Origin: Alphaproteobacteria bacterium
Lineage (GTDB): Bacteria; Pseudomonadota; Alphaproteobacteria; Acetobacterales; Acetobacteraceae
NCBI GenBank assembly: GCA_026400815.1
Contig: JAPLOI010000077.1
Location: 1-64,000 of the forward strand
DNA: 64,000 bases
Direction: 5' to 3'
The position numbers and the translations under genes were made by a program. Shown piece by piece: positions 37,843 through 47,924 of this stretch. Numbering within the stretch: position 1 is the stretch's first letter; each line of letters starts with the position of its first letter. The notes beneath the pieces are model-generated. The model saw nothing but the letters and a program-made list of their open reading frames with translations, was not told the DNA's origin and did no database searches.

Positions 37843-38169
37843 CATGCCATCCGCCAAGTAACGATTGCTTTTTGTTGACAGCGCCGCGGGCGAAGGCGGA
37901 TAGCGGAATCAAGCGTCCGCTCCGGTCGATTCGCAAAGGCATTGCGTTCGTTCTTGCGGAGGCAACAGGGAAGGTACGGTCGATGGACCGCTGTCTCGTC
38001 AACAGGCCCTGCAACCCGGCGCGGGCACGCAACGTTCACCGTCGTGGCCGCCAGGCAAGCAGGTCTTATCCGACGTCGCCCTTCGCTTTCGCCTTCCAGG
38101 CGGCGCTGCGCCGCTTCTCTGCATGACTGGCCTTGCCCACACAATCTGGCAGACAAGGAGTGCCATCCC

Positions 38170-38661
38170 ATGACCGAAGTGAAGAAGCCGGCCCAGGCGC
38201 TTGCCATGAAGGCCGCCACCAAGAAAGCCGCAGCCCCCGCCAAGCCCGCCGCTGCTCCGGCAAAGAAGGCCGCCGCCCCCAAGGCCGCCGCTGCTCCGGC
38301 AAAGAAGGCCGCCGCCCCGAAGGCCGCCGCCGCTCCGGCGAAGAAGGCCGCCGCCCCCAAGGCCGCCGCTGCCCCGGCGAAGAAGGCCGCTGCCCCCAAG
38401 GCTGCCGCCGCGCCGGCAAAGAAGGCCGCCGCCCCCAAGGCCGCCGCCGCTCCGGCAAAGAAGGCTGCCGCCCCGAAGGCTGCTGCTGCTCCGGCGAAGA
38501 AGGCCGCCACCCCGAAGGCCGCCGCTGCTCCGGCGAAAAAGGTCGCTGCCCCCAAGGCTGCTGCTGCCCCGGCGAAGAAGGCGGCTGCCTCCAAGGCCGC
38601 CGCCCCCGCCAAGGCTGCGGCTCCGAAGAAGGCCGCGCCCAAGAAGGCTGCCGCGAAGTAG
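38170..38661 (+). CDS. Histone H1-like Ala/Lys/Pro-repeat DNA-binding protein
   Basis: This 163-residue protein has almost no residues other than Ala, Lys and Pro after residue 15. Residues 29-145 are nine tandem copies of a 13-residue unit (APAKKAAAPKAAA, last three copies with one change each), then a PKKAAPKKAAAK end. This is the composition of bacterial H1-like proteins (HctB/AlgP type) that bind and compact DNA through a disordered basic tail. There is no globular domain. Copy number is likely to vary between strains. A bidirectional terminator follows. Confidence 0.87.
   Translation: MTEVKKPAQALAMKAATKKAAAPAKPAAAPAKKAAAPKAAAAPAKKAAAPKAAAAPAKKAAAPKAAAAPAKKAAAPKAAAAPAKKAAAPKAAAAPAKKAAAPKAAAAPAKKAATPKAAAAPAKKVAAPKAAAAPAKKAAASKAAAPAKAAAPKKAAPKKAAAK
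38254..38604 (+). repeat. Nine 39-bp tandem repeats inside the H1-like gene
   Basis: Nine in-frame units of 39 bases encode APAKKAAAPKAAA. Third-position differences (GCT/GCC, AAA/AAG, CCC/CCG) are scattered between units, so the array is not freshly amplified. Three units carry an amino-acid change (T, V, S). Confidence 0.9.
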
Positions 38662-38769: not shown

Positions 38770-39402
38770 TCAGCCGAAAGTCGAAAGCAGGTCGTCCACT
38801 TGCCCCGGCGTCAGCAGCCGCATCTGCTGCCCGCGCAGCAGCAGGAACAGCTTCGCCGCCTCTTCCAACTCCTCCGCCGCGAACACCGCATCGCGCAGCG
38901 TGGCGCCCGAGACCACCGGCCCGTGGTTGCCCAGCAACACCGCCTTGGCCCCCTGCGCCGCCGCATGGATCGCCGGCTCCATCGCCCCGTCGCCCGGCCG
39001 GTAATACGGCACCACCGGCATGCGCCGCCCCACCCGCATCACGAAATACGGGGTCAGCGGAGGGATCGGGTTGTCCGCGTCCACATCCGGCAGGCACGCC
39101 ACCGCGGTGGCCATCGTGGAATGCAGATGCACCACCGCCCCGGCATCCGGCCGCGCCTGGTAGAAGGCCCGGTGCATGAACACCTCCTTCGACGGCTTGT
39201 CGCCCGAGACATGCGCGAAATCCGGCCCGAGCTTCGAAATCCGCCCGGCCTCCAGCGACCCCAGCGAGGAGTTCGTCGGCGTCATCAGATACCCGTCCGG
39301 CAGGCGCGCGCTGATGTTCCCGGCCGACCCCACGGAAAATCCACGCGCGAACAGAGAGGCCGACAGCGCCACCATCTCTGCCCGAAGCTGTTCCTCGCTC
39401 AC
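38770..39402 (-). CDS. otnC: Class II aldolase/adducin family protein, probable 3-oxo-tetronate 4-phosphate decarboxylase
   Basis: This 210-residue protein has the class II aldolase fold: SAGNISARLPDG near the start, the conserved Glu region, HLHSTMATA (two zinc His) and LLGNHGPVVSG with a further His. Together with the kinase just upstream it matches the OtnK-OtnC pair, which phosphorylates a 3-oxo four-carbon sugar acid and decarboxylates it to dihydroxyacetone phosphate. The start is GTG at 39402, overlapping the kinase stop as GTGA. It is the last gene of the pterin-type operon. Confidence 0.82.
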   Translation of the reverse strand: MSEEQLRAEMVALSASLFARGFSVGSAGNISARLPDGYLMTPTNSSLGSLEAGRISKLGPDFAHVSGDKPSKEVFMHRAFYQARPDAGAVVHLHSTMATAVACLPDVDADNPIPPLTPYFVMRVGRRMPVVPYYRPGDGAMEPAIHAAAQGAKAVLLGNHGPVVSGATLRDAVFAAEELEEAAKLFLLLRGQQMRLLTPGQVDDLLSTFG

Positions 39403-40673
39403 GCCGCCCCCGTGCTGGCAAACGCCTTCAGGAAGAAATCGGGCGCGCCGAAATTGCCGCTCTTCAGCGCCAGCTTCATCGCCGGCCCGCTGCCCTCTGC
39501 CAGCGTCCACGGCACGCCGGGGTCGATCTCGCCGCCGATCCGCAGGCTCCGAACCCCCAGCCGCGTCACCACCGCGCCGGAGGTCTCGCCGCCGGCGACA
39601 ACAAGGTTGCGCACCCCGCGCGCCACCAGCCCCTCGGCCACCTCGGCCAGCGCGTCCTCGATCAGCGCGCCCGCCGCTTCGCGCCCCAGCTTGGCCTGCA
39701 GCGCCGCCACCACTTCCGGCGGGGCAGAGGCGGCGATCAGCACCGGCACCGTGCCCAGCTTGCCGTCCACCCAGTCCAGCGCCTGCTTCGCCAGCGCCCG
39801 CGCATCCGGCGTGGCCAGCGCATCCAGTTGCAGCGTCGGAATCCGCTCCCGCGCCCGTCCGATCTGGAACAGCGTGGCGCGCGAGCAGGAGCCCGCCAGC
39901 ACCGCCGTGTGCCCCTCCACCTCCGGCAGCGCCCCGGGGTCGCCGCTCACCGCCAGCTTGCCCGCCCGGCGGAAATTCTCCGGCAGTCCGATCGCGATAC
40001 CGCTGCCGCCGGTGATCAGCGCATGGTTCTCCGCCGCCTCGCCGATCGCCTGCAGATGCGCGTCAGACACCGCATCCACGATGGCGTAGCGACGCCCCTG
40101 CTCCTTCAGCCCGGTCATCGCCTTGCGGATCGCCGCCGCGCCCTGGTCCACCGTGGCATAGGGCACCAGCCCTACCGTCCCCTCGGTCTGCCGGCCCAGC
40201 ACCCGCACCAGGTTCGCATCCGTCATCGGCGTCAGCGGGTGCTTCTCCATGCCGCTTTCGTTCAGCAGCACGCCGCCCACGAACAGATGGCCCATGTAGA
40301 CGCTGCGCCCGTTCACCGGGAAAGCCGGGCAGGCCAGCGCGAAGCCGCAGCCCAGCGCCTCCACCAGCGCATCGGCCACCGGCCCGATATTGCCTGCCTC
40401 CGTGCTGTCGAAGGTGGAGCAGTATTTGAAGAAGAACTGGCTGCACCCGGCCGATTTCAGCCACGCCAGCGCCGCCAGGCTCTCGCCCACCGCCTGCCGC
40501 ACCGGCGCGGTGCGTGATTTCAGCGCCACGATGATGGCATCGGCCTCCGGGATCGGCGCGCCCGCCTCCGGCACCCCGATCACCTGCACCGCCCGCATGC
40601 CGTTCTTCACCAGCATGGAGGCGAGGTCGGTCGCACCCGTGAAGTCGTCCGCAATGCACCCCAGCAACGCCAT
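39399..40673 (-). CDS. otnK: Four-carbon acid sugar kinase family protein (3-oxo-tetronate kinase)
   Basis: This 424-residue protein has the DUF1537 kinase N-domain (GCIADDFTGATDLASMLV at residues 5-22; FFKYCSTFDST) and nucleotide-binding C-domain (VVAGGETSGAVV near residue 365). It phosphorylates four-carbon sugar acids such as 3-oxo-tetronate. The ATG at 40673 has GAGGGAG about 10 bases upstream; an in-frame GTG at 40679 overlaps the methyltransferase stop. It usually lives in sugar-acid operons with a dehydrogenase; here it is tied to a pterin-like gene set. Confidence 0.87.
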   Translation of the reverse strand: MALLGCIADDFTGATDLASMLVKNGMRAVQVIGVPEAGAPIPEADAIIVALKSRTAPVRQAVGESLAALAWLKSAGCSQFFFKYCSTFDSTEAGNIGPVADALVEALGCGFALACPAFPVNGRSVYMGHLFVGGVLLNESGMEKHPLTPMTDANLVRVLGRQTEGTVGLVPYATVDQGAAAIRKAMTGLKEQGRRYAIVDAVSDAHLQAIGEAAENHALITGGSGIAIGLPENFRRAGKLAVSGDPGALPEVEGHTAVLAGSCSRATLFQIGRARERIPTLQLDALATPDARALAKQALDWVDGKLGTVPVLIAASAPPEVVAALQAKLGREAAGALIEDALAEVAEGLVARGVRNLVVAGGETSGAVVTRLGVRSLRIGGEIDPGVPWTLAEGSGPAMKLALKSGNFGAPDFFLKAFASTGAA

Positions 40674-40675
40674 GC

Positions 40676-41551
40676 TCACTCTCCCTCGATCACCAGGCCC
40701 GGCGGCAGCGCGAGACTGTCGCGATGCCCCACCCGCATGGCAAGCCGTCCGCGGTCCACCTGCTTGGCCCGCAGCCGCGCCCAGGCCCGAACCATCTCGC
40801 GCCGATCCCGCAGGCGCCGCGCCGCCACCTCGCCGTGGCTGGCCACCAGCATGTCCAGCATGTCCGCCGCATCGGCCGGAATGCGCCAATCGCTCGCGGC
40901 CTCCCGCACCGTCCAGCCGCGCGCCGCGAAGGCCGCCCGCAACGCCTCCGGCGATTTCGGCCCCAGCGCCACGCCCAGCCCCTTGTTCCGCTGCTGGTCA
41001 CGCCGGAAGCCGGAGAATACCATCCGGTCCACGGGATGCGCGGGATACAGCCGGTCGCGCCCATCCACCGAAAGGCAGGCCAGCAGCGGCTTCTTCAGCA
41101 CCGCGGCCATCTCGGTCATCCACTCGGCCGATACCAGGTCCAGCAGCGCCGAACACACCACCGCATCGCGCCGGTTGAGCCCCAACCCGGAGAGTGGTGC
41201 TGCAAGATCCACCACCTCCGCCTCCACCCGCCACGCCCCCTTCGGCGTGCGCACCACCATGGAGGACGCCGAAGCCGTCACCGGCAGCCCGCGCGAAGTT
41301 GCCCAGCGCGAGATCTCCGCAAACGCCCGCTCCAGCAGCGCCGCGTCGGCATCGGCCAGTGTCCATTCCTGCGGCCGGTCCAGGATCGGCGCCAGCCAGC
41401 GGAACAGGCTGCCGGTGCCCGCGCCGAGGTCGATCAGTCGCGCCCGCGCCGGCAATGCCGCGCCCAGGCGCTGCGCCAGCGCCACGCTGCGCGAAGCCGC
41501 ATCGAACGGTTCCCGCAGCGCCAGCCAATCGCCGTCGAAGGTCTCTGCCAT
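40676..41551 (-). CDS. SAM-dependent class I methyltransferase of the pterin-type operon
   Basis: This 291-residue protein has motif I as LIDLGAGTGSLFRWLAP (39-55), an acidic loop LADADAALL for adenosyl ribose binding, and VDLAAPLSGLGLNRRDAVVCSALLDLVSAEW for motifs III-IV. The substrate is unknown. It overlaps nothing but sits 1 base after the glycosyltransferase stop and 3 bases before the kinase start. Position inside a pterin-like cassette suggests it methylates the same small molecule, but that is inference. Confidence 0.83.
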   Translation of the reverse strand: MAETFDGDWLALREPFDAASRSVALAQRLGAALPARARLIDLGAGTGSLFRWLAPILDRPQEWTLADADAALLERAFAEISRWATSRGLPVTASASSMVVRTPKGAWRVEAEVVDLAAPLSGLGLNRRDAVVCSALLDLVSAEWMTEMAAVLKKPLLACLSVDGRDRLYPAHPVDRMVFSGFRRDQQRNKGLGVALGPKSPEALRAAFAARGWTVREAASDWRIPADAADMLDMLVASHGEVAARRLRDRREMVRAWARLRAKQVDRGRLAMRVGHRDSLALPPGLVIEGE

Positions 41552-42580
41552 CTACCCCAGCTTCGCCAGCGCGGCGGCGAACTCCCGCCCCTGCGTTGCC
41601 CAGTCCGGCAGGGTCTGCCCGGCCTCCCATGCCGCCTGCGCCATCTCCTTGCGCAGCTCGGTATCGAAGATCACCCTGCGGATCGACTTGGAGAATGTCA
41701 CCAGGTCGCCCACCTCGCACACCGCCCCGGCCTCCACCGGCACCAGCGCGCCAGCGGCGCCGCCCTTGGTGATCGCCACCGGCAAGCCGCGCTTCAGCGC
41801 CTCGGCGATCGCCATGCCGTAGCCCTCGTACTCCGTCGCCAGCGCGAACACGTCCGCGCTGTGCCACAGCCCCTCCAGCGCCTCGCCGGTGGCCACGCCC
41901 ACGAATTCCACCCGCTGCGCGATCTTCAGTTCCTCGGCCAGGTTGCGCAGCGTCGCCCCATACACCGGGTCGGGCGCCCCGCCGGCGATGGTCAGGTGCC
42001 AATCCAGGTCGAACAGCCGCGCCAGCGCCCGCAACAGCAGCTCATGCCCCTTGCGCGGGATCAGCGTGCCAATCGACAGGATGCGGCAGGTCGGTCCGCC
42101 GGAGCCCATGCTGCGCGGTGCCGCCTCGGTCCCTGGCACCACGCTCACGATCCGCTCTGCTGGCACGCCGAACTGCTTGGCCAGCGTCTCTGCCGTGGTC
42201 GGGCTGGTTACGATGCTGCCGGCCAGAGCCGGGAACATCCGCCCCTCCACCTCGCGCAGCCATGCCGTGTCATCGGCGGCGAACCCGGCCTCAAGGGAGG
42301 TTGGATGATGGATCAACCCCACCGCGGGCCGCTCCAGCCCCGCCCCGAAGGCCGGCAGGCCCAGCCCGTCGATCACCGGGATCGCATCCGGCGCCACCTG
42401 CGCCATCGCCGCCCGCGCGGATTCCAGCGCCGCGCCGTCAGAGACCGGATGCCGGCCCTCGATCTCGATCACATCCACCACGTGCCCGGCCGTGCGCAGC
42501 TCCGCCACGATCCGCCGATCGTATCCATATCCGCCGGAAATCGCCGAAATCGGCCCCGGCACCAGCAATGCGATGCGCAT
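41552..42580 (-). CDS. Glycosyltransferase family 4 of the pterin-type operon
   Basis: This 342-residue GT-B enzyme starts at the N-terminal glycine loop (PGPISAISGGYGYDRRI), with HHPTSLEAG mid-protein. The C-terminal domain has ILSIGTLIPRKGHELLLRAL and the EX7E motif (EYEGYGMAIAEAL) that contacts the nucleotide-sugar donor. There is no membrane segment. Cell-wall or polysaccharide genes are absent around it, so the acceptor may be a small molecule made by its neighbours. Its ATG overlaps the PTPS-like stop as TGATG. Confidence 0.88.
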   Translation of the reverse strand: MRIALLVPGPISAISGGYGYDRRIVAELRTAGHVVDVIEIEGRHPVSDGAALESARAAMAQVAPDAIPVIDGLGLPAFGAGLERPAVGLIHHPTSLEAGFAADDTAWLREVEGRMFPALAGSIVTSPTTAETLAKQFGVPAERIVSVVPGTEAAPRSMGSGGPTCRILSIGTLIPRKGHELLLRALARLFDLDWHLTIAGGAPDPVYGATLRNLAEELKIAQRVEFVGVATGEALEGLWHSADVFALATEYEGYGMAIAEALKRGLPVAITKGGAAGALVPVEAGAVCEVGDLVTFSKSIRRVIFDTELRKEMAQAAWEAGQTLPDWATQGREFAAALAKLG

Positions 42581-42981
42581 CAGTAGAGCGCGCCCTCATA
42601 GGCCGCCCAGGCGCCCGGCGCCTCGCGCAGCAGCACCTTCAGCCCCGTGGTCACGCGCCCGCCTTCGCCGAGCGTGCCGTCCTTCAGCGCCGCGGCCAGC
42701 AGGCCCCAGATGTGGAACGCCATGTATTCCGTGGTGGTGTTCTGGCCCGCGAACTGCGGCAGCGTGTCCAGGTTGTGGTAGTCCACCGTATCCAGGATGC
42801 GGCGCAGCTCCGTCTTGGCCAGGCCGATATCGATCAGCAAATTGTGCCCATCCAGCTTCGGCGCCCGGAACTCCGCCTCCACGGCATAGGTCGCGCCGTG
42901 CATGCGCTGTGCCGGGCCGAATTCCTCGCCCTGGAAGCTGTGCGCGATCATGATGTGATCGCAAACCGTCAGGCTGAACAT
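42580..42981 (-). CDS. Divergent 6-pyruvoyl-tetrahydropterin synthase / QueD family protein
   Basis: This 133-residue protein has the T-fold length and layout of PTPS/QueD: MIAHSF (His14), RMHGATY (His28), VDYHNLD for the LDHxxLN motif and NTTTEYMA for the PTxE pterin-anchoring Glu (Glu85). Two key features differ. The usual HGH is HGA, so the third zinc His is Ala30, and no Cys stands before it (FGPAQRMHG), so the catalytic Cys of QueD/PTPS is missing. Either zinc is bound differently or chemistry has changed. Start choice is between 42981 and an ATG 9 bases upstream. Confidence 0.8.
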   Translation of the reverse strand: MFSLTVCDHIMIAHSFQGEEFGPAQRMHGATYAVEAEFRAPKLDGHNLLIDIGLAKTELRRILDTVDYHNLDTLPQFAGQNTTTEYMAFHIWGLLAAALKDGTLGEGGRVTTGLKVLLREAPGAWAAYEGALY

Positions 42982-42982
42982 T

Positions 42983-43930
42983 CTACCCATCCCCATACGA
43001 AACGACGTGGCAAAGCCCACCGGCCAACAGGCGCGGCATGGCCGAAGGCAGGTCCTCGAACCGCGTCGGCGGTTCCAGCAAGGCGTCGTACGCCGCATCC
43101 GCCAGCAGGTCCAGCGCCAGGGCCAGGCGCTGGCCATAGCTCCGCCGCCCGCGCATCGCGGTGGCCACGCTGCCCACCTGGGTGGAGCTGATGCGCAGCC
43201 GCCGCACATGAAACGCCTCGCCCAGCGGCAGGGCAGGGGTCTTGTCCCCAAACCAGCTCGCCTCCACGATCCGCCCCTCGAACGCCGCGCACGAAAGCGC
43301 CGTCCGCAGGCCGGCCTCGCTGGCGGAGGCATGCACGATCAGCTCCTGCTCCAGGGGCGCATCCCCCGGCAGCGCGAAGTGGCACCCGAGTGCGGCGGCC
43401 AATGCCGCCCGTGCGGGATCGATATCCACCACCGTCACCACCGCCCCCGGACTGCGCGCCAGCAGGGAGGCTGTGACCAGCCCCACCACGCCGGCCCCCA
43501 CCACCATCATCCGCTCACCGGCCAGCGGCGCGGCGTCCCAGGCGATGTTCACCGCCGTTTCCATGTTCGCCGCCAGCACCGCGCGCGCCGAGGGCACCGC
43601 ATCGGGCACCGGAATGCACATCCCCGCCGGCGCGTCGAACACATCCTGGTGCGGATGCAGCACGAAGAAACGCTGGCCGGCGCCATCCACGCCAACCGCG
43701 CTGTAGCCGTATTTCACCGGGAACGGGAACGCGCCCCCCATCAACGGCGCCCCCATCACCGCGAACTGGCTCTCCGGCACCCTTCCTGCGAACACCAGCG
43801 ATTCCGTGCCGCGCGAAATCCCGCTGGCCACCGCCCGCAGGCGCACCATGCCCTCCGGCACCGCCCCCAGCGTCTCCGTGCGGATCTCCCCCCGCCCGGC
43901 CGCCACCGTCCAGAACGCGCGGGCTATCAT
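42983..43930 (-). CDS. MDR-family zinc-type dehydrogenase (BchC-like)
   Basis: This 315-residue medium-chain dehydrogenase has SGISRGTESLVFAGRVP and FPFPVKYGYSAVG, the pattern seen in BchC-type and related dehydrogenases. GYSAVG is followed by HPHQDVF and a Rossmann motif VVGAGVVGLVTASLLA (about 166-181). The classical catalytic-zinc Cys/His set is not obvious. It could oxidise or reduce a side-chain alcohol/ketone. It overlaps the upstream reductase stop (ATGA) and ends 1 base before the PTPS-like ATG. Confidence 0.82.
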   Translation of the reverse strand: MIARAFWTVAAGRGEIRTETLGAVPEGMVRLRAVASGISRGTESLVFAGRVPESQFAVMGAPLMGGAFPFPVKYGYSAVGVDGAGQRFFVLHPHQDVFDAPAGMCIPVPDAVPSARAVLAANMETAVNIAWDAAPLAGERMMVVGAGVVGLVTASLLARSPGAVVTVVDIDPARAALAAALGCHFALPGDAPLEQELIVHASASEAGLRTALSCAAFEGRIVEASWFGDKTPALPLGEAFHVRRLRISSTQVGSVATAMRGRRSYGQRLALALDLLADAAYDALLEPPTRFEDLPSAMPRLLAGGLCHVVSYGDG

Positions 43931-44721
43931 CGCCGCACCAGCGGCCCGCGCGCATCTGCGCGCTGAAGCGGAATGTCGAACAGCAGATCCGCCCCCAGCC
44001 GATACACCTCCCAGGTCAGCCGCAGCCCATCCTCCGGCTTCGGCACGCCCGCCAGGGTGAACGACGGAATGCCCGACCCGAGCAGCAGCGGCGCCACCGT
44101 CACATGCAGCCGGTCCAGCGCGCCGGCCGCCAGGAAGCGCGAGACCGTGATCCCGCCGCCCTCCACGAAAATCCGCTTCAACCCGCGCGACGCCAGCGCC
44201 GCCACCACGGCGGGCACCGAAAGCCCACCACCGGGCCCGCGCGGCAGCGCCACCACCTCGGCCTGCCCCAGCCGGCCCGGCCCCACGATATCGTCCGCCA
44301 CCATCAGCAGCGTTGCCGGCTCGCCCTGGAACAGCCGGTAGCCATCCGCCAGCCGCCGGTCGGTATCGATCACCACCCGCACCGGGGAGGGCCCCTCGCA
44401 CAGCCGCGTCGTCAGCAGCGGGTCATCGGCCTTCACCGTGCCGGCGCCGACCACGATGGCATCGCACACCGCCCGCAGCCGGTGGGTATGCAGGATGTCC
44501 TCGGGCCCGCTGATCCAGAACGACATGCCGCTTTCGGTGGCGATCCGCCCATCCAGCGTCTGCGCGATCCGCCCGAGCACGAAGCACCCGTCGGGCATCG
44601 CGGCCGGGCCCAGGAACGGCGCATAGAGCCGCGGATAGCCCCCGGCCCCCGGCGCCCGCGCCAGCACGCGCCGCCAGGCCGCCTCGTCGATATCATCCGA
44701 AGGAATGTCAGGGGGCGGCAT
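43927..44721 (-). CDS. RibD C-terminal / dihydrofolate-reductase-like reductase
   Basis: This 264-residue protein has an N-terminal extension of about 45 residues then the RibD_C domain. Its motifs are GRIAQTLDGRIA, SGPEDILHTHRLRAVCDAIVVGAGTVKADDPLLTTR, and near the C-terminus RIFVEGGGITVSRFL. This fold reduces the ribosyl side chain of pyrimidine or pterin intermediates with NADPH. No deaminase domain is fused, unlike true RibD. It is the first gene of the seven-gene operon, only 38 bases after the flgN-like gene, so read-through from the flagellar operon is possible. Confidence 0.85.
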   Translation of the reverse strand: MPPPDIPSDDIDEAAWRRVLARAPGAGGYPRLYAPFLGPAAMPDGCFVLGRIAQTLDGRIATESGMSFWISGPEDILHTHRLRAVCDAIVVGAGTVKADDPLLTTRLCEGPSPVRVVIDTDRRLADGYRLFQGEPATLLMVADDIVGPGRLGQAEVVALPRGPGGGLSVPAVVAALASRGLKRIFVEGGGITVSRFLAAGALDRLHVTVAPLLLGSGIPSFTLAGVPKPEDGLRLTWEVYRLGADLLFDIPLQRADARGPLVRR

Positions 44722-44759: not shown

Positions 44760-45158
44760 TCAGGCCGAGGCGGCGATCGCCACGGGAAGTGCCGTGCGCG
44801 CCCCAACCAGCCCGCCCGCGGCGCCATAGCGGGGTGCGACCATGCTCGCCCGCGGCGCCGCCTCGGCGATGATCGCCAGAACGCGCTGCTGCACCGCCAT
44901 CGCCCGTTCCAGCAGCAGCCGGTTCTCCGCCGCCAGCTCGCCCAGCCGCCGCACCACATCCGGCACCGCCACCGCACCCGAACTGGCCGCCCCCATGGTT
45001 GCTGCACGGGCATTCGCCGCCACGAAGGCATCGGTCGCCGCCCGCTTGGCCTCCAGCAGTGCGGTGGCTGTCGGCAGGTCCATCGCCACCAGCGCCGCGT
45101 TCTCGCGCGCCAAAAGCTCCACCAGCCCCTCGGCCGCCATCATCGCGTTCACGGTCAT
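44760..45158 (-). CDS. flgN: FlgN-like flagellar export chaperone
   Basis: This 132-residue, mostly helical protein has heptad-like stretches (ELLARENAALVAMDLPTA; LGELAAENRLLLERAMAV) and an Ala/Arg C-terminus. Sequence identity within FlgN is always low; the call rests on size, coiled-coil character and position right after flgI and the rod-binding protein. FlgN holds hook-filament junction proteins before export. The start overlaps the upstream stop as ATGA. Confidence 0.7.
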   Translation of the reverse strand: MTVNAMMAAEGLVELLARENAALVAMDLPTATALLEAKRAATDAFVAANARAATMGAASSGAVAVPDVVRRLGELAAENRLLLERAMAVQQRVLAIIAEAAPRASMVAPRYGAAGGLVGARTALPVAIAASA

Positions 45159-45493
45159 TCCTTCGCCTCCTGCAAAGCCGCCTTCTTCGCCGCATCGGCC
45201 GCTTCCTGCGCCCGCAGCATCTGGTGATAGACCGGCACCGCCAGCCCCAACCCGCCGCCTTTGGCCACGTGCTTGCCGATCTCCTGGGACATCATCGGCC
45301 GCCACTGCTCCTCTGCCGCCCCGCCGCCGAACATCCCCTTGGACGTCTCCACGGTCGCGAACATCGGCGCCACCAGCTGCCCCAGCACCATCGCCTCGAA
45401 ATCCCGGGCCGTTTTCCAAACCTTGGCCTTCGCGGGATCGGCCAACTCCGCCGGCCCCGGCTTGGCCCCCTGAACCACCACGCCCGAACTCAT
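45155..45493 (-). CDS. flgJ: Flagellar rod-binding protein (FlgJ N-domain only)
   Basis: This 112-residue protein contains the rod-binding domain (AKVWKTARDFEAMVLGQLVAPMF then MFGGGAAEEQWRPMMSQEIGKHVAKGGGLGLA). The muramidase domain found in enterobacterial FlgJ is absent, as usual in alphaproteobacteria. It caps the growing rod in the periplasm. It overlaps flgI by ATGA and the FlgN-like start by ATGA. Confidence 0.88.
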   Translation of the reverse strand: MSSGVVVQGAKPGPAELADPAKAKVWKTARDFEAMVLGQLVAPMFATVETSKGMFGGGAAEEQWRPMMSQEIGKHVAKGGGLGLAVPVYHQMLRAQEAADAAKKAALQEAKE

Positions 45494-46584
45494 CGCACCA
45501 CCAGCTCCGCCTGCAGCGCACCCGCCGCCTTGATCGACTGCAAGATCGTGATCATGTCCCGCGGCCCCACCCCCAGCGCATTCAGCCCCGCCACCAGGTC
45601 GCGCAGCGTCACGTTCTGCGGCAGGATCCCCAGGCGCCGATCACTCTGGTCGTCGATCTGCACCTGCGAGCGCGGCGTCACCACCGTCTGCCCCTGGGAG
45701 AGCGGGCCGGGCTGCGACACATCGGCACTCTCCGTCACCCGGATCGTCAGGTTCCCCTGCGCGATCGCCACGGTGCTGATCCGCACATTCGCCCCCATCA
45801 CGATGGTGCCAGAGGCCTCGTCGATCACCACCACCGCCGGGCTATCCGGCTCCACGCGCAGCACCTCGATCCGCGCCAGCGCATCCACCACATCCCGTCC
45901 GGCCAGGTTCAGCGCCACGGTGCGCGGATCCGTCGCCGTTGCCGTGCCGCCACCCAGCGCGCGATTGATCGCGTCCGCCATCCGCCGCGCCGTCGTCAGG
46001 TCCGGGTTGCGCAGCCCCAGCCGCGGCGCCTGCCGGCTCGCCAGCTGGAATGCCACCTCGCGCTCCACCGTCGCCCCGTTCGGAATCCGCCCCGCCGTCG
46101 GCACACCGCGCGTCACCGAAGCCGCAGCCCCCCCGGCCGCAATCGCCCCGGTCGCCAGCGCGCCCTGCGCCACCGCATACACCTCGCCATCGGCGGCCAG
46201 CAGCGGCGTTACCAGCAGCGTTCCACCCGTCAGGTTCGTCGCATCGCCCAGCGCCGAGACCGAAACATCGATCCGGCTGCCCGTCCGCCCGAACGGCGGC
46301 AGCTCCGCCGTTACCATCACGGCGGCCACGTTCTTGGTCTTGAGCTTGGCCTCCTGGTCGCGCGTGTTCACGCCCAGCCGCTCCAGCATGCCGATCAGTG
46401 ACTGCCGGGTGAACACCGCGGAATCCAGCTTGTCCCCGGTCCCGTTCAGCCCCACCACCAGCCCGTACCCCACCAGCTGGTTGCCGCGGATTCCCTCCAT
46501 GTCCGCGATGTCCTTGATCCGCACCTGCCCCATCACCGGGGAGGCGCCGAGCAGCACGAACAGCATGAAAACAAATCGGATCAC
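45490..46584 (-). CDS. flgI: Flagellar P-ring protein FlgI
   Basis: This 364-residue precursor of the P-ring, the periplasmic bushing of the flagellar rod, has a signal peptide (IRFVFMLFVLLGASPVMG), then RIKDIADMEGIRGNQLVGYGLVVGLNGTGD, the highly conserved FlgI start. SLIGMLERLGV and the C-terminal LVAGLNALGVGPRDMITILQSIKAAGALQAEL follow. The start is probably GTG at 46584 (GGAG 8 bases upstream, perfect signal peptide); ATG at 46629 is possible. A sigma-54 promoter lies at 46656-46670. Confidence 0.95.
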   Translation of the reverse strand: MIRFVFMLFVLLGASPVMGQVRIKDIADMEGIRGNQLVGYGLVVGLNGTGDKLDSAVFTRQSLIGMLERLGVNTRDQEAKLKTKNVAAVMVTAELPPFGRTGSRIDVSVSALGDATNLTGGTLLVTPLLAADGEVYAVAQGALATGAIAAGGAAASVTRGVPTAGRIPNGATVEREVAFQLASRQAPRLGLRNPDLTTARRMADAINRALGGGTATATDPRTVALNLAGRDVVDALARIEVLRVEPDSPAVVVIDEASGTIVMGANVRISTVAIAQGNLTIRVTESADVSQPGPLSQGQTVVTPRSQVQIDDQSDRRLGILPQNVTLRDLVAGLNALGVGPRDMITILQSIKAAGALQAELVVR

Positions 46585-46655
46585 GGCAGGCGCTCCAGGA
46601 TCACGGGAACGGTTCAGCAATCTTTGCATCGCAGTCTTTCCCTCACTCCCGCCTC

Positions 46656-46670
46656 GCAATCCCCGTGCCA
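46656..46670 (-). promoter_or_regulatory. Sigma-54 (RpoN) promoter of flgI operon
   Basis: The minus strand reads TGGCAC-GGGGA-TTGC, a perfect match to the -24/-12 consensus TGGCAC-N5-TTGC. Transcription would start about 12 bases further on (near 46645), ahead of both candidate flgI starts. In Caulobacter such class II/III promoters are driven by FlbD, whose partner FliX is encoded next door. Confidence 0.82.
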
Positions 46671-46801
46671 TCCGCAACGCCTTGATTTCCAAGGGCCTCA
46701 GCGGAAAGCCTCGGGGAGGGCAGGGCGCCCGCCACCCGGCAATCCCTGCCGGGAGGCACGCACTGCCGGCCGCGGGGGGCCGTTGAGAAGGAAATGCCCT
46801 C

Positions 46802-46930
46802 ATGCCGATGAACGATTCCTTGGCGTTCCCCCCGCCGCCGCCCGGCGGCGGCTCAGACCCGCCCCCGCCGGCAGGCGGCGGCTCAGGCCCGTCGCCACAG
46901 CCGGCCGCCGCCGGCCCGCACCCGCCATGA
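46802..46930 (+). CDS. 42-residue Pro/Gly-rich small ORF coupled to fliX
   Basis: The frame from ATG 46802 encodes MPMNDSLAFPPPPPGGGSDP, continuing with a second PPPPAGGGSG unit and ending AAAGPHPP. Its TGA overlaps the fliX ATG as ATGA. AAGGA lies about 10 bases before the ATG. Proline-rich runs slow ribosomes, so the ORF could tune fliX translation; it could also be fortuitous, since the region is very GC-rich. No family is known to me. Confidence 0.4.
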   Translation: MPMNDSLAFPPPPPGGGSDPPPPAGGGSGPSPQPAAAGPHPP

Positions 46931-47340
46931 TCCGCGGCGTCGGCGCCCCGCCGCCCGTCTCCGGCGGCACCCGCCAGGTGCGCGACACCGGCGGCTTCCG
47001 CATGCCCAAATCCGAATCCGCCCCCACCACCGGGGTCTCCGGCCCGGCCGCCGTCGGCACCCCCTCCATGCTCGCCCTGCAGGAAATGCCCGACCCGCAT
47101 CTGGCGGACCGCGAGGCCCGTCGCCGTGGGCAGGACATCCTGGCCGCCCTCGCCGCCCTCCAGCGCGCCCTGCTCGGCGCCGGCCCGATCGACGCCGAAG
47201 CCCTGGCCCGCCTCGCCCAGGATGTCCCGCAGGCCTCCGATCCCGCCCTGCGCGCCGCCATCTCTGCCCTGGTCCTGCGCGCCCGCATCGAGGCCGCGCG
47301 CCTCGAAACCACCCTCCCACCACCCCCCCAAGGCGCCTGA
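46927..47340 (+). CDS. fliX: Flagellar assembly regulator FliX
   Basis: This 137-residue protein starts MIRGVGAPPPVSGGTRQVRDTGGF, with ALQEMPDPHLADREARRRGQDILAAL mid-protein and a helical end. This is the FliX pattern known from Caulobacter, where FliX links early basal-body assembly to the sigma-54 activator FlbD. It is divergent from the flgI operon, which has a sigma-54 promoter. No sigma-54 site was found on the plus strand upstream. Confidence 0.88.
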   Translation: MIRGVGAPPPVSGGTRQVRDTGGFRMPKSESAPTTGVSGPAAVGTPSMLALQEMPDPHLADREARRRGQDILAALAALQRALLGAGPIDAEALARLAQDVPQASDPALRAAISALVLRARIEAARLETTLPPPPQGA

Positions 47341-47507
47341 CACCCAATCGTCATGGCCAGATGTCGACAACCCCTTGGCGCGGAAACATCGCCCCGTTAT
47401 AAGCCGCCCCGTCTGGAAGGCCCGGGGGGGCCCTGGATGGTACCCTGATCCTCGGGGGCCCATCGCGGCGACCCCTGCCGGCCGCAACGCCGCAGGAACG
47501 CCCCACA

Positions 47508-47924
47508 ATGATGGTCACGCTCCCGCCTGATTACGTGCCGTCCGATACCGAGGATTTCATGAATCCGCTTCAGGTGGAGTTCTTCCGCCAGAAGCTCCTC
47601 CGCTGGAGGGCCGACCTGCTGCGCGAGGCAGACGGCACGCTGGCAAGCCTCTCCCAGGGCGGGATCACCGAGGCCGACATCACCGACCGCGCCTCCGTCG
47701 AAACCGACCGGGCGCTGGAGCTGCGTACCCGCGACCGCGCCCGCAAGCTCATCAACAAGATCGACCAGGCGCTGCAGCGCATCGAGAACGGCACCTACGG
47801 CTACTGCGATGAAACCGGCGAGCCCATCGGCCTGCGCCGCCTCAACGCCCGCCCCATCGCCACGATGTCCATCGAAGCCCAGGAACGCCACGAGCGCATG
47901 GAGCGCGTCCACCGCGACGACTAG
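47508..47924 (+). CDS. dksA: DksA-family RNA polymerase-binding regulator, single-cysteine type
   Basis: This 138-residue protein has the coiled-coil hairpin with the conserved tip DITDRA (58-63) and the C-terminal globular motif GTYGYCDETGEPIGLRRLNARP. Of the four E. coli zinc cysteines only the first is kept (Cys100); the others are Thr103, Ser121 and Ala124. It therefore should fold without zinc, like P. aeruginosa DksA2 and other alphaproteobacterial forms. It acts with ppGpp on RNA polymerase. A second ATG at 47511 is equally possible. Confidence 0.92.
   Translation: MMVTLPPDYVPSDTEDFMNPLQVEFFRQKLLRWRADLLREADGTLASLSQGGITEADITDRASVETDRALELRTRDRARKLINKIDQALQRIENGTYGYCDETGEPIGLRRLNARPIATMSIEAQERHERMERVHRDD

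Follow-up and report, generated by a model that had tools for sequence, protein, structure and literature searches.

The described system closest to the one reported here is the PTPS-IV subfamily of COG0720, whose FGPAQ motif and neighbouring families PF00925 and PF01872 are already published (PMC5445326). The consulted portions of that article make no mention in their text of a medium-chain dehydrogenase (MDR), a glycosyltransferase (GT), a methyltransferase (MT) or envelope-type genes, all of which are present in the clusters analysed below. A review, as far as its consulted part goes, assigns PTPS-IV to the synthesis of coenzyme F420 and cites unpublished work for this (PMC5041015). BrbF, a creatininase-family protein of Sinorhizobium riboflavin synthesis, was shown experimentally to be a formamidase for the GTP cyclohydrolase product, according to the consulted part of its report (PMC9478397). 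The present analysis concerns a seven-gene operon with a PTPS-IV gene, located in a window of 64,000 nucleotides (the whole stretch of DNA analysed; GCA_026400815.1, JAPLOI010000077.1) that forms the start of contig C18 in the 5.1 Mb draft genome of an Acetobacteraceae bacterium. A literature search, judged mostly from listings, retrieved no paper giving this cluster a product. Relative to the published parts consulted, what is new is the neighbourhood of MDR, GT, MT and envelope-type genes, a GT-MT fusion, a test of the F420 role, and the separation of the OtnK and OtnC genes from the conserved core.

The initial annotation had described seven tightly spaced frames on a single strand, and each was recovered uninterrupted on the minus strand, from 44721 to 38770:

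RED, 44721-43927, minus strand: stand-alone RibD_C reductase, 264 aa
MDR, 43930-42983, minus strand: BchC-like medium-chain dehydrogenase, 315 aa, apparently zinc-free
PTPS-IV, 42981-42580, minus strand: PTPS-fold protein with the FGPAQ...HGAT motif, 133 aa
GT, 42580-41552, minus strand: GT4-type glycosyltransferase, 342 aa
MT, 41551-40676, minus strand: S-adenosylmethionine (SAM)-dependent methyltransferase, 291 aa
OtnK-type 3-oxo-tetronate kinase, 40679-39399, minus strand: GTG start, 426 aa; probably outside the core pathway
OtnC-type 3-oxo-tetronate 4-phosphate decarboxylase (aldolase frame), 39402-38770, minus strand: GTG start, 210 aa; probably outside the core pathway

From RED to the aldolase frame, the successive joints were a 4-base overlap, a 1-base gap, a 1-base overlap, a joint of 0 bases, and two 4-base overlaps. 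The families proposed at the outset held for RibD_C, PTPS, Glycos_transf_1, SBD_N/NBD_C and Aldolase_II, all of which exceeded their Pfam cut-offs; for MDR and MT the resemblance stood, with Pfam scores slightly below the cut-off.

The PTPS-fold protein (Pfam PTPS, 80.7 bits against a cut-off of 22.4) carried FGPAQRMHGATY and possessed the FGPAQ signature of PTPS-IV. The pattern FGPAQ..HGAT was matched by 114 of 121 locus sequences, a set that includes repeated loci, the window's own among them. The nearest solved relative was SCO6650 of Streptomyces coelicolor (3d7j; E = 2.8e-41, 55% identity), against which the structure model (pLDDT 95.8) gave a TM of 0.94. Signature, structure and neighbours were thus shared with the subfamily that includes SCO6650, and nothing spoke against membership. 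Across the 121 sequences, H14, H28, E85 and E120 were kept, while positions 24 and 30, where QueD has its cysteine and the second histidine of HGH, were Ala (98% each). In the PTPS fold, the two glutamates (E85 and E120) anchor the ring. The PTPS sequences of the 14 control loci (defined below) had HGH in all 14 cases and Cys in the position-24 column in 7, with E120 comparable in two only. PTPS-IV therefore shares its fold, H14 and H28 with QueD (PTPS-I) but reads AxxxHGA in place of CxxxHGH, and no queuosine neighbours were recognised; the PTPS-II and PTPS-III motifs (CxxxxxHGH and ExxHGH) were not matched either, since HGA replaces HGH. As the Cys and one His of HGH are replaced by Ala, the chemistry of PTPS-IV probably differs from that of QueD. 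The gene was annotated as 6-carboxytetrahydropterin synthase (queuosine biosynthesis) in all eight annotated records examined, which fits poorly with the altered motif.

The neighbourhood of PTPS-IV was compared across 398 evenly drawn Pseudomonadota genomes, of which 124 had a PTPS match, this genome included. Twenty-six of them, all outside this family, matched at 43% identity or more, and 97 matched weakly; 14 of these 97, among them one at 38% identity (G120), were used as controls. Stretches of about 18 kb around PTPS (shorter at contig ends) were searched, and partners were counted within 9 kb at 50 bits or more. The window and seven plasmid loci supplied the seeds of the core profiles, and L074, L075, L099, L102 and L117 those of the sulfatase, OpgH and YceI profiles. 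At the 26 loci, which span 19 genera and are not fully independent, PTPS-IV was accompanied by MDR (26/26), GT (25/26), MT (24/26; 18 separate frames and 6 fused to GT) and RED (22/26). Other neighbours were a CDP-alcohol phosphatidyltransferase (12/26), RibA (11/26), the flippase-like LPG_synthase_TM (11/26), an FkbM methyltransferase (8/26), cytochrome b561 (7/26) and a creatininase (6/26). None of these partner genes was found at the 14 control loci at 50 bits, three of which had GT-profile matches of 30-47 bits, under that threshold. Set against the controls, these counts place the gene arrangement beyond chance. The published neighbourhood of PTPS-IV was also found again (RED in 22 and RibA in 11 of the 26 loci), the window itself containing PF01872 only. 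In six loci (L110, L112, L113, L114, L115 and L116), GT and MT were encoded in one frame, a fusion that links the two activities.

The initial annotation had singled out RED, MDR, PTPS, GT and MT as a core and had named their not being neighbours in other genomes as grounds for dropping it; as the core recurs in many genomes (26, 25, 24 and 22 of 26 loci for its four partners, none of 14 controls), this did not arise. Its statement that the core recurs in actinobacteria was also borne out, with all five genes on a Microbacterium plasmid and four, without RED, in Streptomyces. Eight of the 21 plasmid records matched by PTPS were examined: all five core genes were present on plasmids of Microbacterium, Peteryoungia, Thiodictyon and Methylosinus, and on a Palleronia plasmid where GT lay several genes apart. 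Overall, the cluster occurred in actinobacteria and in three proteobacterial classes (Alpha-, Beta- and Gammaproteobacteria), some copies being plasmid-borne, and a haloarchaeal plasmid carried a divergent form. RED-MDR-PTPS-GT-MT is a core conserved beyond Acetobacteraceae, and the seven genes are probably not one pathway. No phage copy of MDR was found at E = 1e-5 across 50,697 records. The divergent archaeal version (L103, Haloarcula plasmid) was accompanied by a creatininase, a CDP-alcohol phosphatidyltransferase and a 656-residue protein with two parts matching dehydrogenase and aldo/keto reductase families. On a Streptomyces anthocyanicus plasmid (L104), a PTPS-IV gene without any core partner was located beside MEKHLA-domain and cupin genes.

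RED belonged to RibD_C (132.6 bits against a Pfam cut-off of 24.1), the sole Pfam family matched; the Pfam search detected no deaminase domain. Its nearest solved structure was 6p8c, named 2,5-diamino-6-ribosylamino-4(3H)-pyrimidinone 5'-phosphate reductase. RED is an additional copy, with 39% identity across 177 residues to the RibD encoded on contig C42 of the same genome. It possessed the stretch DAIVVGAGTV and EGG; among the 56 relatives listed, EGG was present in 56 and the DA..G pattern in 35. The reductase-domain match of the genome's own RibD (C42:91034-91663, L084) holds one in-frame TAG.

MDR scored 30.3 bits with ADH_zinc_N (Pfam cut-off 31.8), and its top NCBIfam family was TIGR01202 (BchC). 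Scoring 33.8 bits where the cut-off is 291.25, it lies far below membership of this bacteriochlorophyll dehydrogenase family; the label 'BchC-like' given in the initial annotation is nevertheless fair as a resemblance, since TIGR01202 ranked first despite the sub-cut-off score. BchC turns a secondary alcohol into a ketone. In the alignment of MDR relatives, the stretch SRGTE was conserved, the GHE motif was absent (0/53 rows) and position 169 was acidic in all 53 rows (D in 52, E in one). An acidic residue at such a position is typical of NAD(H)-using dehydrogenases, and its conservation therefore fits NAD(H) use.

GT matched Glycos_transf_1 (87.1 bits against a cut-off of 26.4), and its solved relatives were 3c48 and 3c4q, named 'Predicted glycosyltransferases'. 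MT remained below the cut-off of Methyltransf_23 (23.3 against 27 bits) and of Methyltransf_25, and its structure model (mean pLDDT 95.1) matched solved SAM methyltransferases, with 3mgg as the best match. In a midpoint-rooted tree, the GTs of Acetobacteraceae-type loci (contigs with near-identical PTPS, some filed as Rhodospirillales or Asaia) formed a single group nested in the GTs of PTPS-IV clusters, with members from loci with and without the core intermixed. Owing to this nesting, GT probably arrived together with the PTPS-IV cluster.

The genes recurring near the cluster also indicate how substrate may enter it. A gene for a RibA-type GTP cyclohydrolase II was located near the cluster in 11 of the 26 loci, and at least one match to RibA or creatininase profiles (RIBA, CREA) within 9 kb in 13 of 26, compared to none of the 14 controls. 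In the families recurring in at least four neighbourhoods, of which the larger were assigned by profile and the others by eye, with no FolE profile, no GTP cyclohydrolase I was noticed. Taken with the formamidase activity of BrbF, this proximity points to entry via GTP cyclohydrolase II, with deformylation offered as a suggestion. BrbF shares its family with the cluster creatininases and differs in that, in the consulted part of its report, it feeds riboflavin synthesis. At the Acetobacteraceae-type loci (L002-L060), many of which are short, no RibA, creatininase or envelope-type partner was found at 50 bits. The RibBA encoded on contig C42 (L083, L091) yielded no match to the motifs usual for GTP cyclohydrolase.

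On these grounds we favour, tentatively and at slightly less than even confidence, a core that is a GTP-cyclohydrolase-II-fed pyrimidine/pterin pathway, present here in its Acetobacteraceae form and marked by PTPS-IV. Every substrate, step and product in it is what we infer, whereas anatomy, families, neighbourhood, GT-MT fusion and active-site losses are observations. RibA would open GTP, giving a formylamino- or diaminopyrimidine ribotide, which a creatininase-family formamidase would deformylate where required, such genes sitting elsewhere in this genome. RED would then reduce the ribosyl (C1') to a ribityl chain, probably before any deamination, and MDR would oxidise a secondary alcohol of this chain, plausibly at C2'. 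The resulting ketone could condense with the 5-amino group to give a dihydropterin. A C2' ketone of the ribityl chain is the Amadori intermediate of GTP cyclohydrolase I, and RED and MDR would thus provide two redox steps replacing the Amadori rearrangement within that enzyme. The T-fold pocket of PTPS-IV may hold the ring and catalyse closure or tautomerisation without the QueD cysteine and the full zinc site, and GT and MT would finally glycosylate and methylate the product. The specific order of RED, MDR and ring closure is unlikely to be correct in exactly this form.

The early route to riboflavin and F420 in archaea uses a GTP cyclohydrolase, an ArfB-type formamidase and an ArfC-type reductase. 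RibA, creatininase and RED could give the same order, with ring opening, deformylation and reduction before deamination. The cluster differs from the archaeal route in having a RibA-type cyclohydrolase and a RED nearer the bacterial RibD model, followed by MDR, PTPS-IV, GT and MT. The cluster would be a pathway assembled from enzymes of the riboflavin and pterin types. Identifying its product would assign a function to a subfamily with a structure solved since 2008, for which the literature seen offers no more than the unpublished F420 suggestion, and the product might be a new GTP-derived cofactor or envelope component.

Several observations weigh against this proposal. RibA and creatininase were not part of the window operon: a GTP cyclohydrolase II that looks intact and is extended at its N-terminus was encoded on contig C21, away from the operon, and four creatininases elsewhere in the genome. 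The six cluster creatininases scored 82-106 bits with the creatininase profile, compared to 462 and 490 for its two seeds, and the genome's own unlinked creatininases reached a similar 68-124 bits; the creatininase link is weak, as the neighbours score no higher than unlinked family members. RED itself fell below the archaeal diaminopyrimidine ribotide reductase family (TIGR01508, 109 bits against a cut-off of 186.45) and scored higher with the bacterial RibD model (TIGR00326, 119.5 bits), under both cut-offs, and its second solved relative, 2azn, is named putative 5-amino-6-(5-phosphoribosylamino)uracil reductase. Because the bacterial model ranks higher and 2azn is named as an aminouracil reductase, reduction before deamination is unproven. 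RED was also missing near the cluster in 4 of the 26 loci (one cut by a contig end), and the Streptomyces fungicidicus plasmid and the divergent Haloarcula plasmid possessed MDR, PTPS, GT and MT with no RED nearby. Finally, 11 of the 42 informative Acetobacteraceae-type loci had the operon without GT, and 23 of 65 genomes of the family without PTPS-IV retained a GT match at E = 1e-25, so that GT and the core are separable.

Envelope-type genes were frequent near the cluster in other lineages. At least one of a CDP-alcohol phosphatidyltransferase, LPG_synthase_TM, an OpgH-profile match or a sulfatase-type membrane protein was present at 21 of the 26 loci and at none of the 14 controls, which makes an envelope destination of the product plausible outside Acetobacteraceae. 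The CDP-alcohol phosphatidyltransferases listed retained a motif of the DG.DG..AR...G...D...D type. OpgH-profile matches of at least 650 bits were found in 8 of the 26 loci, one of which (L117) is a profile seed, and the cluster-adjacent proteins of L102 and L117 exceeded the NCBIfam MdoH cut-offs; matches of 93-396 bits (L114, L110, L118) may be other family-2 glycosyltransferases and were set aside. In an extended version of the proposal, the cluster would be a second, GTP-cyclohydrolase-I-independent route to a pterin-like ring, with RED reducing, MDR oxidising and PTPS-IV aiding closure, and its glycosylated, methylated product would be joined to the envelope in most lineages, Acetobacteraceae keeping the core only; we consider this version improbable. 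The CDP-alcohol phosphatidyltransferase would attach the product to a lipid and the flippase-like protein carry it across the membrane, after which it might decorate lipids or periplasmic glucans. An MdoH/OpgH-type periplasmic glucan synthase was observed near the PTPS-IV cluster at L102, L117, L122, L124, L125, L126, L128, L129 and L130. A lipid link in the present genome was considered and rejected, as the CDP-alcohol phosphatidyltransferase model gave only two matches (29-30 bits); the one on contig C35 is probably an ordinary phospholipid gene, since it lies beside a frame read as phosphatidylserine decarboxylase.

The last two frames of the operon exceeded both curated cut-offs of the OtnK/OtnC sugar-acid route, the kinase with OtnK (NF043035, 627.6 bits against 350) and the decarboxylase with OtnC (NF043034, 291.2 bits against 250). 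Neither was matched at loci L061-L081 or L097-L144, which include the 26 out-of-family PTPS-IV loci, and both were seen at Acetobacteraceae-type loci only. Among the 59 loci of this type, 17 were too short downstream and 17 too short upstream and were left out of the respective counts. In the 42 remaining downstream, the kinase was present in all 31 loci with GT and in none of the 11 without it, while MT was missing in 10 of the 31. OtnK and OtnC are probably an ordinary sugar-acid breakdown pair that shares the transcription unit but lies outside the core pathway.

Within the family, PTPS-IV (at least 44% identity) was found in 55 of 120 genomes, and GT adjoined PTPS in 52 of these 55. The counts for PTPS-IV, CofH and GT were taken as one draw, as the genomes match. 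At E = 1e-25, GT was matched in all 55 and in 23 others, of which 10 entered the adjacency analysis; of the 13 weaker ones, G006, G007 and G023 were read as loci. At five loci of genomes without PTPS-IV (L162, L164, L165, L167 and L170), GT and the kinase followed flagellar genes with no core, and in one genome (G014) the core (L177) and a GT-kinase-aldolase unit (L171) were located at separate places. Most simply, this distribution reads as a joint arrival with the cluster, followed by loss of one half or the other. Since a single deletion can remove GT and kinase together, their shared absence is no proof that they work together. In L165, a cytochrome-b-like frame lies between the flagellar genes and the GT-kinase unit.

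The same distribution could mean that in Acetobacteraceae GT works with the sugar-acid genes or in a glycosylation linked to the flagellum, the product of RED, MDR and PTPS (with MT) being unglycosylated there. The core-less GT-kinase units beside flagellar genes fit such a role, as do the loci that have PTPS and MDR but lack GT (11 of 42). They are joined by flgI- or flgJ-like frames upstream in 27 of the 42 Acetobacteraceae-type loci with enough upstream sequence, none of which were seen at loci L061-L081 or L097-L130. It is, however, opposed by the midpoint-rooted tree, where these GTs group inside those of PTPS-IV clusters, and by the adjacency of GT and PTPS in nearly every family genome with PTPS-IV (52/55), and we regard it as unlikely, though with some weight.

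The favoured entry via GTP cyclohydrolase II also has to be weighed against a cluster acting on a pterin that GTP cyclohydrolase I provides, with RED as a dihydropterin reductase and not a ribotide reductase. Reductases of the same fold as RED can act on pterins. This reading is countered by RibA, located beside the cluster in 11 of 26 loci where GTP cyclohydrolase I was not noticed (no FolE profile), and by RED itself, which has DAIVVGAGTV and EGG and whose nearest solved relatives are ribotide reductases by name. Even with PTPS relatives that act on dihydroneopterin triphosphate, as stated in the consulted part of the review (PMC5041015), it is a fairly improbable account.

That all seven genes lead to one product, as the initial annotation had proposed, would have OtnK and OtnC provide or take away a piece of three or four carbons. 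The shared strand, the overlapping frames and the strict co-occurrence of kinase and GT (31/31 loci with GT, absent in 11/11 without) are compatible with it. The comparison did not support it, since the kinase and decarboxylase exceed the cut-offs of curated catabolic (3-oxo-tetronate) families and were unmatched at the 26 out-of-family loci, and since GT and kinase occur after flagellar genes in genomes without the PTPS core and the two halves lie apart in G014; a single seven-gene pathway is quite improbable.

A role of PTPS-IV in coenzyme F420 synthesis is very unlikely. This genome did encode an FbiC-like protein outside the window (C18:168389-170614, L153; 819-codon frame), and within the family CofH exceeded the cut-off in 23 of the 55 genomes with PTPS-IV compared to 7 of the 65 without (p = 1e-4; Fisher test). 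However, CofH was found at E = 1e-80 in none of the 26 PTPS-IV genomes of other families, so that a general F420 role was rejected despite the association within the family, where 32 of the 55 genomes with PTPS-IV had no CofH over the cut-off. To our knowledge, the known F420 route needs no PTPS step. The neighbours of the FbiC-like gene were read by eye as LLM-class oxidoreductases.

PTPS-IV was the sole member of the PTPS family found in the assembly, which also has a QueC homologue at a contig edge (C44:131-799; L148, L150), and PTPS-IV might thus be supposed to replace QueD in queuosine synthesis or FolB in folate synthesis. This was judged extremely unlikely from motif and neighbours: Ala takes the place of the QueD cysteine and of a histidine, 4 of the 26 genomes (G213, G309, G318 and G335) have another, weak PTPS-like match, and no gene of either pathway was recognised among the recurrent neighbours, for which no QueC or FolB profile was used.

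Immediately upstream of the operon, frames read by eye as flgI, flgJ and flgN occupied positions 44760-47508 on the minus strand, the end of flgN lying 38 bases from the operon. Just downstream, on the plus strand, a frame at 37942-38661 encoded many Ala-Ala-Pro-Ala-Lys-Lys repeats.

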